A DNA stretch of 39,551 bases from Candidatus Microgenomates bacterium (lineage in GTDB: Bacteria; Patescibacteriota; Microgenomatia; Levybacterales; UBA12049): the NCBI GenBank assembly GCA_025451195.1, contig JANWKV010000057.1:1-39551 (forward strand). The letters are read 5' to 3'. The notes under the pieces were generated by a model that ran no database searches, was not told the origin of the DNA, and worked only from the letters and a program-made list of their open reading frames with translations. The position numbers were made by a program, and so were the translations under genes. Below, in pieces: positions 4,840 to 19,064 of the stretch (position 1 is the stretch's first letter; every line of letters starts with the position of its first letter).

Positions 4840-6699
4840 CTATGTTTTCTTTGTTGTAAATGGGGATTCTTTGTTTACTTTCTCGCCAACAAGGGCTGTA
4901 AATTCCTCGCCTTCAAGTGTTTCTTTTTTCAGTAACTCTTCCGCAAGTACGTCTAGTTCTTTTCTTAAACCTTTAAGAACACGCGTTGCCTCTTTATAAC
5001 ACAAATCTACAATCCTTTTAACCTCGCCGTCTACTTTTGCCTGCATCTCAGGTGACAAATTCCTAACGTCAAACATAGTTTGCCTATCCAAATCTAAGTT
5101 AATCGGACCCAAATCACTCATTCCGTATTCGATAACCATCATTCGGGCAACCTCTGTTGCTTTCTCTATGTCGTTACTTGCTCCTGTTGTCATTTCGTTA
5201 AATATTAAATTCTCTGCCGCGCGCCCTCCCAACATAACCGCAATTTGCTCCAAAAGATGCGTTTTTGTTTCGTGACTTCTCTCAATTGGTTCCATCATGG
5301 TATGCCCCAGACTCATTCCTCTACTAACTATTGATACTCTGTGTACTGCATCCATGTGCGGCATATACCAGGAAACCATCGCGTGTCCTCCTTCGTGATA
5401 AGCTGTCATTTTTTTATCCTGATCGGATTGAAGTCTCTTTTTCTCAGGGCCCAATTTAACTTTTGTTGCCGCTTCTTCCAAATCTTTCATGTCAATTGCT
5501 TTTTTATTAAGTCTTGCCGCCAGAATTGCCGCCTCGTTTAACATGTTTTCCAAATCTGCACCAGAAAATCCTGCAGTACGCTTTGCAACCTTTTCCCAAT
5601 CCACTCCTTCTGCAAATGGTTTACCTTTCGCGTGGATTGCCAAAATTGCTTTTCGTCCTTCAACATCGGGCATATCAAGCATCACTTTTCTGTCAAACCT
5701 ACCTGGCCTTACCAAAGCCGGGTCTAAAACATCGGGTCTGTTGGTTGCCGCAATAACAATCACTTTTTCACTTGGGGTAAAACCATCCATTTCAACCAAA
5801 ATCTGGTTTAGGGTTTGTTCCCTCTCGTCATGACCTCCCATAACTCCAATTCCACGTTGTCTCCCAATTGCATCTATTTCATCAATAAAAATAATTGAAG
5901 GCTGGGCTTTTTTGGCAGTATTAAATAAATCGCGGACTCTGCTTGCCCCAACTCCAACTAGCATTTCCATAAACTCAGACCCGGCCATTGAAAAAAATGC
6001 AGTATTTGCCTCCCCCGCGGTTGCCCGGGCTAAAAGCGTTTTGCCGGTACCGGACGGCCCAACCATCAATACGCCTTTTGGAGTTCTTGCCCCCATACTT
6101 AAATATTTATCCGGGTGGCGTAAAAAATCGACAATTTCCGTCAGCTCCTGCTTTGCCTCGTCAACTCCCGCAACATCGGCAAATGAAACTTTAGGGTTGT
6201 CTTTATTAAAAAGCTTTGCGGAAGATTTACCAAATGAAAAAATATTTTCCTGGGCCCCTCTTGCCTGTCTGAATAAAAAATAGAAAAATGCAATCATTAA
6301 GACAATCGGTAAAACAGAGCCTAAAATATTAATCCAATTTGTAAGACCGCTGTCATCCTTAACAGTAACCTCAGTCTTATTAAGAGCAACGCCCGCATCT
6401 TTAAAAATACTGTAAATACTGGCACCTGCCTCTTTGGCGCTGTCTATTACCTGTCCTCCTTTTTCTGTTACTGTTAATTTTGTGTCTGTAACGACAATCT
6501 GGGAAACTTTACCTGCCTTTACATCATCAATAATTTGAGAAAGAGGCACGGTTTTTTGAACTTCAACAGACTGGTTAAGCCCGACAAACAGAAAAATCAA
6601 AAATATTACTAAAAATCCGTAAAGCAAAAGATTTTTCCATGAGAAATTAAATTTTACTTTTACAATCTTAGGTTTGTGGTTTTTTTTAGGAGCTGCCAT
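4840..6699 (-). CDS. ftsH: ATP-dependent zinc metalloprotease FtsH
   Basis: Two N-terminal TMs, Walker [50 protein letters not shown], zinc motif HEGGH. Confidence 0.97.
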
Positions 6700-6786: not shown

Positions 6787-8241
6787 TCAAATGGATAAGC
6801 CCATTTTTTCCTTGACTTCCTTCATCGTTTCTTCTGCTATTTTGAGACATTTTTCATTGCCCATTTTTAAAATCTCATCAACAATTTTTGGATGTTCTTC
6901 AAAATATTTTCTTTTTTCTTGTATGGGCTTTAACTCATCATATATTCTCTCCGAGAGAAATGCTTTCAACTCTCCATAACGTATTTTTCCATCCATATAA
7001 TCCTGTTTATATTTCTTGTGCATATCATCACGATTAAACAATGCCAACAGTACAAATAAAGTCGCAACTCCTCCTATTTTTGGCACATCTCCGCCAGTTG
7101 TTCCGGCATCTGTTGGTACCTTTGCAAGTTTTCGTTTTATTGTCTCAAAGTCATCATTTAAGTTAATAAAAGATCCCTCAACGGTTTTACTCATCTTACC
7201 TGCTCCGGTTAAGGACGGCACATATTCCCCCATTGTCTTAAATCTATATGGCTCCGGAAAAGTATCTCCATATACTTGATTAAACTTACGGGCACATTCC
7301 CTCATTACTTCCATATGAGGCTCTTGGTCTATCCCAACCGGAACCAACTCCCCTTTATACAACAAAACGTCCGCTGCCATAAGAATTGGATAATATAAAA
7401 GTGCTGTATTTACGTTTTTTGGGTATTGGGCTTTTTTATCTTTGAATGTAGGTAAATCTTCCAGAGGGGCCAACGGGTAAAGTGTTGCTAAAAGAAAAGA
7501 AAGCTCTGTATGTTGCGGCACCTGGGATTGTATTTCCAATCTGCATTTTTCAGGATCAAGCCCGGCACTTAAAAAATCCAAGATCACGCTGCGGATTGAG
7601 TCTTTTAATGTTTTTGGGTCATATGGCGTTGTCATAGCGTGTAAATCTACAACAGAAAAGGTGCAGTCATAATCATCCTGAAGCGCCAACATTCCCTTCA
7701 CAGCTCCCAAGTAATTACCCAAATGCAGTCTCCCTGTTGCCCTGACCCCTGAATAAACTCTTTTTTTACCTAGAATTGGCCTCTCGGTTACGTCAATAAT
7801 TTGCCCGTTATTTACTTTTGGCAAATCTTTGGCCTGTATTGCAAGACCAAATAATCCGTCTCCACTGCTACCATAAATTTTCCCCTGTTCTAAAACTTTT
7901 TTATCAATAAAATATTTAACTTGTAATCCAAAAAGCGGCACAAGACCATTTTTTGTGCCCAGTTCCCGCAAATCACTTTCTGATGCAAATTCCAATTGCT
8001 TGACACCAATAGCTTGTTTTAGTTTTTCTAAGTTAAATTTTGTATCTGCTCTTCGCTGTATTGCTACAATTCCTTTGTCTGTTTTATATAAGATTGTTGC
8101 CGTGGCCTGACTAAAAGTAATTTTATAAAACATCACATGAGATGGAATATCTAAAGGAAGACTCTCCGGAAGTGGAATAAGATTGTACTTTATCCCGGAT
8201 TTTTTAAGTTTATCTTCTATTAATTGTATTTTGTTTTTCAT
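6787..8241 (-). CDS. trpS: Tryptophanyl-tRNA synthetase with N-terminal YbaK/ProX-like domain
   Basis: TrpRS core GVRATGRLHLGNYLGAV, VDLHAMTTPYDP, GAGKMSKTVEGSF; residues ~1-150 resemble YbaK (KTDKGIVAIQRRADTKFNLEKLKQAIGVKQLEFASESDLRELGTKNGLVPLFGL...FIDKKVL..G..G..LFGLAIQAKDL). Confidence 0.9.
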   Translation of the reverse strand: MKNKIQLIEDKLKKSGIKYNLIPLPESLPLDIPSHVMFYKITFSQATATILYKTDKGIVAIQRRADTKFNLEKLKQAIGVKQLEFASESDLRELGTKNGLVPLFGLQVKYFIDKKVLEQGKIYGSSGDGLFGLAIQAKDLPKVNNGQIIDVTERPILGKKRVYSGVRATGRLHLGNYLGAVKGMLALQDDYDCTFSVVDLHAMTTPYDPKTLKDSIRSVILDFLSAGLDPEKCRLEIQSQVPQHTELSFLLATLYPLAPLEDLPTFKDKKAQYPKNVNTALLYYPILMAADVLLYKGELVPVGIDQEPHMEVMRECARKFNQVYGDTFPEPYRFKTMGEYVPSLTGAGKMSKTVEGSFINLNDDFETIKRKLAKVPTDAGTTGGDVPKIGGVATLFVLLALFNRDDMHKKYKQDYMDGKIRYGELKAFLSERIYDELKPIQEKRKYFEEHPKIVDEILKMGNEKCLKIAEETMKEVKEKMGLSI

Positions 8242-8254
8242 ATTCTTAAATTTC

Positions 8255-8659
8255 TTAATGTATTTTAGCTCCTGAATCCACTTTTCTCTCCGGAGTTAAA
8301 AGCACAATCCCATTTTCATCATCTGTTGCCATAATCATTCCCTGGCTTTCATATCCCCTAAACTTCCGCGGTTCTAAATTTGTTATAACCGCAATTTGAC
8401 GCCCTACTAAAACAGATGGGTCTTCAAAAAACGGCGCTATAGCAGACATAATTTGCCTAACATGTTTTCCCGGATATTTCTCGGCAAGCTCAGGGAGAAT
8501 GGCAATACTTTCTGTTTTTCCTTCTTCCGAAGAATTCTGCTCTGCAGGACCAAAATCAAAAATTAATTTTATCAACCTGTCTGCGTCCGGTACCTTTTCT
8601 GCCTCCATTACAGTACCTATTTTAATTTCTACTTTATTAAAATCTTCAATTGCTATCAT
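8255..8659 (-). CDS. tRNA-binding (MetRS C-terminal / CsaA / EMAP-like) domain protein
   Basis: FNKVEIKIGTVMEAEKVPDADRLIKLIFDFG...ITNLEPRKFRGYESQGMIMATDD. Confidence 0.88.
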   Translation of the reverse strand: MIAIEDFNKVEIKIGTVMEAEKVPDADRLIKLIFDFGPAEQNSSEEGKTESIAILPELAEKYPGKHVRQIMSAIAPFFEDPSVLVGRQIAVITNLEPRKFRGYESQGMIMATDDENGIVLLTPERKVDSGAKIH

Positions 8660-9444
8660 ATTTTTATTTTCAGAATAAAGTTTTCTACGTTTTTTAACAT
8701 TTTATCCCTTGCCGATGAATCGATTATATCAATAATTTTGCTTCCTACAACAACAATGTCTGCATAACCTTGCAACTGCTGAATATGTTCTTTTTTAGAA
8801 ATTCCAAATCCTACGGCAACTGGAATTTTTATTATTTTTTTTATTCTTCCCAGATTTTCGGAAAGTTTTGGATTAAGCTTTAAAGAAGCACCTGTTGACC
8901 CTTGGCGGGAAGTAAAATAAACAAATCCGCTTGCAATTTTTGAATTTTTTTCCAAACGTTCTCCGGTTGTTGCAGGAGATATAACCCTAATCCCATGAAT
9001 TTCATACTTTTTACAAATGGCTATAAAATGCTCGTAAGGTTCTTCGTCAAGAGGAATATCAGGGACAATAAGCCCACTTACGCCTACATTTTTTGCATCC
9101 CTAATAAACTTTTCTATTCCATATTTGAATATTGTATTGTAGTAGCACATAAATAAAAGCGGAATAAAAACTTTCCCGGCTAGTTTATTTGCAATTACTA
9201 ATGCATCGGCAACTTTTGTGCCTTGCCTTAAAGACTCTTCACATGCCTTCATAATTGTAGGTCCGTCGGCTAGGGGATCGGAAAAAGGAATTTGTAATTC
9301 TACTATATCTACGCCAAAATTAGCCATGCTTATAACTAATTTCTCTGTATCTTTAAGTGAAGGATAGCCGATAACCACATGGGTCATTATGCCGATTTTG
9401 CCACGTTTCTTAATCTCTTGTAATTTTACGTCTAAGTTATTCAT
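8656..9444 (-). CDS. trpA: Tryptophan synthase alpha chain
   Basis: VELQIPFSDPLADGPTIMKA, catalytic E/D retained; GLIVPDIPLDEEP; VGFGISKKEH. Confidence 0.95.
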   Translation of the reverse strand: MNNLDVKLQEIKKRGKIGIMTHVVIGYPSLKDTEKLVISMANFGVDIVELQIPFSDPLADGPTIMKACEESLRQGTKVADALVIANKLAGKVFIPLLFMCYYNTIFKYGIEKFIRDAKNVGVSGLIVPDIPLDEEPYEHFIAICKKYEIHGIRVISPATTGERLEKNSKIASGFVYFTSRQGSTGASLKLNPKLSENLGRIKKIIKIPVAVGFGISKKEHIQQLQGYADIVVVGSKIIDIIDSSARDKMLKNVENFILKIKI

Positions 9445-17339: not shown

Positions 17340-19064
17340 CACGCTTGGAATTGAAGAGTAAATCTGCTTCATTTGGCCTACTGTAACAATCTCTTTATTA
17401 GGCGCAACTCTATTTAATTCATCATCTATGGCTTTTTTAATTTCTGCAAGAGGCTCTATGTACTTTGGACTGTCAAAACTTAATCTTTTATCTTGAAGTT
17501 TTGGGTGCAACCCTAAACCCATGAAAAAATCCCGCCTAATTTTTTTGTTCCCTTTTCTAAATTTATACTGCGCTAAGGTTGCAAAGGAAATTGTATCTAT
17601 AGTTTTTTCATTTGCTTCTTGTTGCTTCCCCTCATTCCCTTCAAAGTCTTTTTCTAGTGTTTTTAGTTCTTGTTCCAACGGCTGTTTTTGATTTTTATAC
17701 TCTTCATCGCTTAAAAGACTACCATCACTATTAGCAGGAGAAATTTTCAGTTGCAATAGGTTTTGAAGTCTTTGTTTTACTTCATTAAGAACGCGTTTCT
17801 TTGCTTCTATGGCGGCTTCTTGATAATCAACTTCTCTATTATCCATTAATTGTATTTGCTCTATTGCCCACTCAAGAAAAGAATCTGGTAAATCAATTTT
17901 ACCTAACTTTTCCAAAACCTGATCTTCAAGTTTATCCACCCTTAGACCTTTCTCAAAACAATTATGATTTTTCTTTTTCCCGCAACGGTAATACTCATAA
18001 TGTAAAACAGTTGGTTTTTCCATATCTGCAACAAGAGTGCCACAAGCAGTACATTTATTTTTATTGTTCTTGCTTAAGGAAAATTTTAATTTACATTTTT
18101 TACAAATAACTTGCCATTTCTCTTCTGCTATTACTCCTGAATCACAAATCCCGCACCTCATAAGAGAAGAATAAGCAAATTCATGGTTTTTTAATTTATA
18201 TTGACTTCTTCTTCCAAGCTTAATTTGGATTTCATCAAAAACTTCTGGATCAACTGCTTTTTCATGTTTACCCTCAAACCATTGACCGCTATATTCAAAT
18301 TTCCCTGCATAAAATGGATTTGTTAATACCCAATAAATCATTCCTATTGTTAGGGGTTTACCACCAAGTCTCTTCTTTTGCCTTGTGCGGTAGTGCCATT
18401 CGTCTTTAGCAAGTCTATGTATCTCTACAACAGGAATTCCCTCATAAAATAACTCAAACACCCTTTTAATAAATGTAAAGCGTTCTGGATCGATTAAAAT
18501 ACGTCTAAAACCACTTTCTGTAGCTCTATCGTTGAGATACCCTTCTGGAGCAACACCTGGCCTCCATCCATCTCGTAACTTCTTTTCCAGTCCTCTTTTT
18601 ACAGCAATACTTTTATCATCAGAATCCTTTTTAGAATTGGCAAACTCAAGAGTTAATAGCCATTTATCTTCAGGACTGTCGCGGTAAATTCTAAAAGGGG
18701 TTCTAATTTCTAAAAGTTTCTTCCTGTCCATAAGATCAATTACGCGGCCGCCATCTGTCATGTTTCTACAAATCCTATTAGGATGCCATGTTAAAATTGC
18801 ATTTGCCTCTCCTTTTTCAATTCTTTCAAGCATTTGGTTAAATATTTCTCTTCCCTGAGTGTGTGCTGACTTAGACTCCTCAAAGTCTGCAATTGCTTTT
18901 ATTTTGTGTCGTGCTTCCATTCCATCCAATACATAAGCCTGCTCCTCTAAAGAAGCCGCCTGTCTTTCTTTGTTGTCCTCTGAGCTTTTCCTTCTATATC
19001 TAAAATAACGTAGAGTATTTTCTGTATCCATAAATTCAATAATGGCCGTCTTAGTTGTACTCAA
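17328..19064 (-). CDS. Large serine recombinase (resolvase/integrase with recombinase and zinc-ribbon domains)
   Basis: YRRKSSEDNKERQAASLEEQ, ILTWHPNRICRNMTDGG, RDGWRPGVAPEGYLN, TIGMIYWVLTNPFYAGKFEYSGQW, CGICDSG...CKKCKLKF...CTACG, C-terminal coiled-coil. Confidence 0.95.
   Translation of the reverse strand: MSTTKTAIIEFMDTENTLRYFRYRRKSSEDNKERQAASLEEQAYVLDGMEARHKIKAIADFEESKSAHTQGREIFNQMLERIEKGEANAILTWHPNRICRNMTDGGRVIDLMDRKKLLEIRTPFRIYRDSPEDKWLLTLEFANSKKDSDDKSIAVKRGLEKKLRDGWRPGVAPEGYLNDRATESGFRRILIDPERFTFIKRVFELFYEGIPVVEIHRLAKDEWHYRTRQKKRLGGKPLTIGMIYWVLTNPFYAGKFEYSGQWFEGKHEKAVDPEVFDEIQIKLGRRSQYKLKNHEFAYSSLMRCGICDSGVIAEEKWQVICKKCKLKFSLSKNNKNKCTACGTLVADMEKPTVLHYEYYRCGKKKNHNCFEKGLRVDKLEDQVLEKLGKIDLPDSFLEWAIEQIQLMDNREVDYQEAAIEAKKRVLNEVKQRLQNLLQLKISPANSDGSLLSDEEYKNQKQPLEQELKTLEKDFEGNEGKQQEANEKTIDTISFATLAQYKFRKGNKKIRRDFFMGLGLHPKLQDKRLSFDSPKYIEPLAEIKKAIDDELNRVAPNKEIVTVGQMKQIYSSIPSVLRG

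Follow-up and report, generated by a model that had tools for sequence, protein, structure and literature searches.

Fusion gene and synthetase core

The window is the whole stretch of DNA that was analysed (39,551 nucleotides), and its features are listed in Table 1 together with those of related loci. Pfam analysis of the fusion protein showed a tRNA_edit domain (PF04073) at residues 44–139 with 53.5 bits (cut-off 25.5) and a tRNA-synt_1b domain (class I W/Y synthetase) at residues 160–433 with 184 bits. The core matched the NCBIfam model of trpS with 276 bits (cut-off 177), and the signatures HLGN and KMSKT and the AAD/VPVGIDQ tryptophan-site segment were present. Judged by its sequence, the core is a complete bacterial TrpRS. 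The initial annotation had described an N-terminal YbaK-like domain followed by a complete TrpRS, and the ORF, Pfam and NCBIfam results agreed with this.

Table 1. Features of the window and of related Patescibacteria loci and fusion architectures
Feature	Position	Strand	Description
YbaK/INS-like domain + tryptophanyl-tRNA synthetase fusion gene	6787..8241	-	484 aa; ATG start at 8241; single continuous ORF
N-terminal INS-superfamily (YbaK/ProX) domain	7774..8241	-	Residues 1-156; PF04073, AlphaFold2, Foldseek
TrpRS catalytic and anticodon-binding core	6796..7767	-	Residues 159-482; TIGR00233; PDB TrpRS matches
Ala48, codon GCA	8098..8100	-	At the superfamily's conserved lysine position
Arg63, codon CGA	8053..8055	-	Predicted cross-strand partner of position 48 (predicted strands; R/K conservation)
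Standalone tRNA_bind gene (MetRS-C/EMAPII-like OB fold)	8255..8659	-	PF01588, 77.7 bits
trpE-G-D-C-F-B-A	8656..15235	-	Upstream of the fusion gene, same strand (Pfam, NCBIfam)
FtsH	4840..6699	-	Downstream neighbour, conserved also at sister TrpRS loci
Group I intron match	17099..17291	+	58.9 bits; between tRNA gene 16852-16923(-) and ORF 17328-19064(-), on the strand opposite to both
AlaX-like gene	L125:8058-8750	+	Directly after the B3/4-YbaK-YbaK-TrpRS gene
Distant second TrpRS-like gene near a fusion	L125:9056-11271, L185:6680-7861, L191:1402-2577, L213:5497-6657
Racemase-like gene near TrpRS	L126:227-964, L037:637-1419, L187, L189, L199, L206, L136:3274-4053
YbaK domain + archaeal-type TyrRS-like core	L091 (G501:C3):1468-3090	-	Lysine present
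ProRS-like ORF	L131:9764-11962	-	733 aa
Asp/Asn-type synthetase + YbaK-type domain	L057, L060, L063, L065, L069, L070, L071		Domain C-terminal
Asp/Asn-type synthetase + YbaK-type domain	L055		Domain N-terminal
YbaK-TrpRS			Includes the window
YbaK-YbaK-TrpRS			G625, G710, G584
YbaK-B3/4-TrpRS			G152
B3/4-YbaK-TrpRS			G495
B3/4-YbaK-YbaK-TrpRS			G496
YbaK-TrpRS-tRNA_bind			G375, G573, G604

A PF00579 search of the window genome (85% complete) returned the fusion as the only TrpRS, the other match being a TyrRS-type ORF; no second TrpRS was found in this search. Of 15 genomes tested, 14 had no TrpRS above the family cut-off other than the fused enzyme, which must therefore charge tRNA-Trp. No in-frame ATG was present in the junction (PILGKKRVYSG) at the point that corresponds to the start of the unfused sister enzyme, and the core therefore cannot be made on its own from an ATG at that site. 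A scan of the genome contigs with the full-length protein confirmed no relative. An assembly chimera or artefact was rejected, because the same architecture occurred in 44 further genomes.

Fold of the N-terminal domain

AlphaFold2 modelling of the N-domain together with six relatives gave a pLDDT of 88.5 and a pTM of 0.82. Foldseek comparison of the model with the PDB returned 2z0k, 2cx5, 1dbu, 1wdv, and 2dxa at TM about 0.8; the best matches were Thermus thermophilus ProX, the YbaK proteins of H. influenzae and E. coli, and related structures, followed by ProRS INS domains and other proteins containing an INS-type domain. Every PDB match below E 1e-4 was INS-type, alone or within a larger protein, and the next match stood at E 0.17, so that no other fold was assigned to the N-terminus. 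The sequence profile of the N-domain matched 1dbu at E 1.5e-13, as well as 5znj, 2dxa, and 1wdv. By profile and predicted fold, the N-domain is a member of the INS superfamily, and the YbaK-type character first noticed over residues ~1–150 was supported by its place among the solved YbaK/ProX structures. The full-length AlphaFold model (pTM 0.64) was too weak to position the N-domain relative to the core.

The N-domain was rejected as a YbaK (Cys-tRNA(Pro) deacylase) orthologue, with 19 bits against the YbaK_EbsC equivalog TIGR00011 (cut-off 153). Borrowing from the ProRS INS domain was not supported by the tree, where the ProRS domains formed a separate starred clade. An AlaX fold of the apicomplexan type was not found at the N-terminus, which was INS-type.

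Loss of the conserved lysine

The lysine of the INS superfamily has been published as strictly conserved, and in all family members tested its mutation has been dramatically damaging to deacylation. Contact with the C75-A76 phosphate has been assigned to this lysine, and the K45A mutation moves a residue that lies 18 positions further along the chain (PMC10164551).

The alignment confirmed the initial annotation that this lysine is missing from the segment ATATILYK, which was the right segment, with A48 of the window at the lysine position. The lysine was absent in 49 of 49 TrpRS-fused domains, replaced by A, S, G, P or V. The residue aligned with R63 of the window was Arg or Lys in 49/49 of these domains and basic in none of the 45 Lys-containing domains (25 standalone, 9 ProRS, 8 Asp/AsnRS-fused, and 3 other); these counts are not independent and carry no p-value. 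Three of the four Lys-less standalone domains also had R/K at position 63. The exception, L034 (G242:C11), had Asn at both the lysine position and the partner position.

The predicted model contained strands at residues 46–54 and 57–64 joined by a two-residue turn, so position 48 is predicted to face position 63. We infer that the positive charge moved across the hairpin from 48 to 63. Other positions were conserved in the Lys-less domains: R64 in 47/52, D66 in 49/52, G99 in 52/52, and D113 in 51/52. The retention of G99 and D113 indicates that the domain is under selection. The GXXXP loop read GLVPL in the window; G99 was invariant, and the proline was absent in most Lys-less domains. Two hallmarks of an active deacylase, the conserved lysine and the GXXXP loop, were thus both missing from the window N-domain. 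Because the lysine was lost throughout the fused domains while a basic residue was always present at position 63, where the Lys-containing domains never had one, the N-domain looks rewired rather than decayed in the alignment and the model.

Distribution and domain architectures

YbaK-TrpRS fusions were found in 45 Patescibacteria genomes, with 49 domains in total. Among the 73 genomes of the window's family, the domain matches included a TrpRS fusion only in the window's own genome (threshold 1e-6). Profile searches found fusions in about 30 of 385 genomes of the window's class (window included), 14 of 91 in the class of G375, 1 of 3 in the class of G152, and 6 of 389 in an even sample of the phylum. 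Profile A2 gave 6 loci, in records titled Dojkabacteria/WS6, Doudnabacteria or Patescibacteria group bacterium. The refuting case of a fusion that is common and already described did not arise: the fusion is recurrent in Patescibacteria, but a description was not found in the literature searched.

A B3/4 domain was present in three fused TrpRSs and absent from the window protein. RR-D, G99, and D113 were conserved among the N-domains of the fusions, which were about 30% identical overall.

Patescibacteria also contained class II synthetases of the Asp/Asn type with a fused YbaK-type domain, and the lysine was kept in all of these domains. The genome with the L091 ORF also had a YbaK-TrpRS fusion, at a distance of about 4 kb. 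The YbaK profile matched the L131 ORF twice, separately.

Phylogenetic analysis

In the TrpRS tree, the window core clustered with cores from its own family that lack the fusion (G016, G005, and G001). Its N-domain had its nearest relatives in G573, G604, and G656, which have cores from another part of the TrpRS tree. The fused cores required 14 label changes on that tree, 12 of them forced, and as one clade they were rejected in the smaller set (AU p 6e-119). A single ancestral fusion inherited with the core was rejected, since the fused cores did not form one clade. In the domain tree, an arrangement of the domains according to their type of core was likewise rejected (p 4e-8 and 2e-6).

The larger domain tree did not reject a single origin for the Lys-less domains as a whole (p 0.226), and the Lys/Arg swap may thus be one event. 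The TrpRS-fused domains alone as one clade were rejected there (p 0.016), because standalone Lys-less domains fell inside; they formed one clade in the smaller domain tree (85/81). The mismatch of core and domain trees and the insert-free locus of G016 indicate that the N-domain was attached, exchanged or lost repeatedly.

Gene neighbourhood

In the window, the tRNA_bind gene overlapped trpA by 4 bases and ended 13 bases before the fusion gene, and its product was 40% identical to the C-terminal tRNA_bind domain of the G375 YbaK-TrpRS. Such a gene or domain was near or fused to the fusion in 11 of 45 genomes, window included. Clear trp biosynthesis genes adjoined the fusion in 12/45 genomes, and TrpB-like genes in 4 more. 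The sister locus of G016, from the same family, was arranged as trpB-trpA-TrpRS-ftsH, with neither the N-domain nor a neighbouring tRNA_bind gene. Lys-containing standalone YbaK genes were found near unfused TrpRS in G051, G587, G612, and G628, an arrangement that may represent this partnership in trans.

The AlaX-like gene of L125 contained HSAGH, and DGGVH replaced the usual CGGTH-type motif. The second TrpRS-like gene of L125 was preceded by a 358-aa ORF with no Pfam match, like the TrpRS-A/ORF1 pairs (PMC5370408). An aspartate/glutamate-racemase-like gene was repeatedly close to TrpRS, fused or unfused.

Possible functions of the N-terminal domain

The initial annotation suggested a changed substrate or a role in tRNA binding, and either may apply. 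We propose that the N-domain belongs to a branch of the INS (YbaK/ProX) superfamily dedicated to TrpRS, and that it would receive the CCA end of tRNA-Trp in cis. The basic residue predicted to lie opposite (R63, next to the conserved R64 and D66) would take over from the lysine now replaced by a small residue. Its likeliest use would be proofreading, by hydrolysis of mischarged tRNA-Trp released by the attached synthetase. That the domain grips the tRNA-Trp acceptor end, most likely for this putative activity, falls just short of an even chance in our estimate. The wider proposal of a proofreading TrpRS, with a cis-editing domain whose essential cation shifted to the facing strand and which spread among unrelated Patescibacteria cores, is held a little more tentatively.

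Proofreading is favoured by the fold, which is that of an aminoacyl-tRNA deacylase family (profile, AlphaFold2, and Foldseek), by the pairing of lysine loss with R/K at 63 at opposed hairpin positions, and by the Lys-containing standalone genes near unfused TrpRS. The three fusions with B3/4 also carry a fold that has editing members (PheRS; CtdA, PMC10018355). Against it, the residue needed for deacylation in every tested family member is missing, the GXXXP proline is gone in most Lys-less domains including that of the window, a sister species with a near-identical locus lacks the domain, and the Arg63 geometry comes from predicted secondary structure, not coordinates. In Plasmodium TrpRS, moreover, an AlaX-like domain that lacks its catalytic residues was interpreted as a tRNA-binding element, and to the knowledge of its authors mischarging of tRNA-Trp had not been reported (PMC3680381).

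The close rival of editing is tRNA binding alone, in which the N-domain would derive from an editing fold and now, as a non-catalytic appendage, strengthen the binding of tRNA-Trp or position it during charging. We consider this quite possible, at clearly less than even chances. The lost lysine and the often lost proline are consistent with it, as is the OB-type tRNA_bind module fused or near in the 11 genomes, and Plasmodium provides a precedent with binding and aminoacylation data (PMC3680381). However, the paired R/K at 63 with conserved G99 and D113 suggests that a specific site was kept, not only a basic surface, and the Lys-containing standalone versions near unfused TrpRS also argue against it. 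Three facts speak for a retained active site: the pairing of the charge, the conservation of G99 and D113, and the association with further editing folds.

It is unlikely that the N-domain senses tryptophan or charged tRNA-Trp and so couples TrpRS to trp operon expression. The adjoining trp genes, a full trpEGDCFBA set in the window, would fit this, but the unfused TrpRS of G016 lies in the same trp context, which therefore does not need the domain. Most fusions had no trp gene in the stretch read, and no RNA family reached threshold near trpE.

Discrimination between forms of tRNA-Trp (G73 against archaeal-like A73), in cells that also have an archaeal-type TrpRS-A, is less likely again. A second, more distant TrpRS lay near the fusion in G496, G650, G606, and G621, these loci resemble the TrpRS-A/ORF1 arrangement of PMC5370408, and INS-type domains can read positions 72/73 (PMC10164551); yet this concerns only 4/45 loci, and the window genome had no second TrpRS match. 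A functionless relic of gene fusion, to which the sister species without the domain might point, is hardly credible, being contradicted by the conservation of RR-D, G99, and D113 across 45 genomes at about 30% identity.

Comparison with known systems and significance

Proofreading or not, the N-domain resembles the known INS superfamily (YbaK, ProXp-ala, ProXp-x, and ProRS INS) in fold and profile, but it lacks the strict lysine, has R/K at the facing position, and is joined to TrpRS. According to a 2024 review, the members other than the INS domain are single-domain proteins, and some protists have a fusion of ProXp-ala with ProRS (PMC11295145).

The closest functional precedent is Plasmodium TrpRS with its AlaX-like domain, which is needed for tRNA binding and charging (PMC3680381). 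Apicomplexan TrpRS likewise joins the synthetase to an appended editing-type domain without the family catalytic residues (PMC3680381). It differs in that the fold is AlaX rather than INS, the enzyme is eukaryotic, and a 72-residue linker is present; no paired replacement of the lost residues was reported (PMC3680381). The B3/4 editing domain of CtdA and PheRS recurs in the three fused TrpRSs, but CtdA occurs as a protein of its own with canavanyl-tRNA-Arg as substrate (PMC10018355), whereas B3/4 of the fusions lies in cis beside a YbaK-like domain.

Mukai et al. (2017) described how class Ic synthetases of CPR bacteria have fused and swapped domains (PMC5370408). The part fused to TyrRS is named there as the PheRS B2 (OB) domain; for a few Microgenomates, the legend of a figure speaks of TrpRS "fused with small proteins", which the passages concerned do not name (PMC5370408). 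The term YbaK does not occur in the text of that paper (PMC5370408). Literature searches linking YbaK with Patescibacteria, or Patescibacteria with aminoacyl-tRNA synthetase and editing domain, found no report; most subscription journals lay outside their scope, and a prior description is possible.

The main new point is the systematic loss of the lysine paired with Arg63. To our knowledge, TrpRS is generally counted among the synthetases that have no editing domain. The recurrent TrpRS branch breaks both this rule and that of the strictly conserved INS lysine. It would make it possible to test directly whether proofreading of tRNA-Trp ever occurs and whether the role of the lysine is positional and transferable, and it bears on how reduced genomes assemble tRNA-handling modules.
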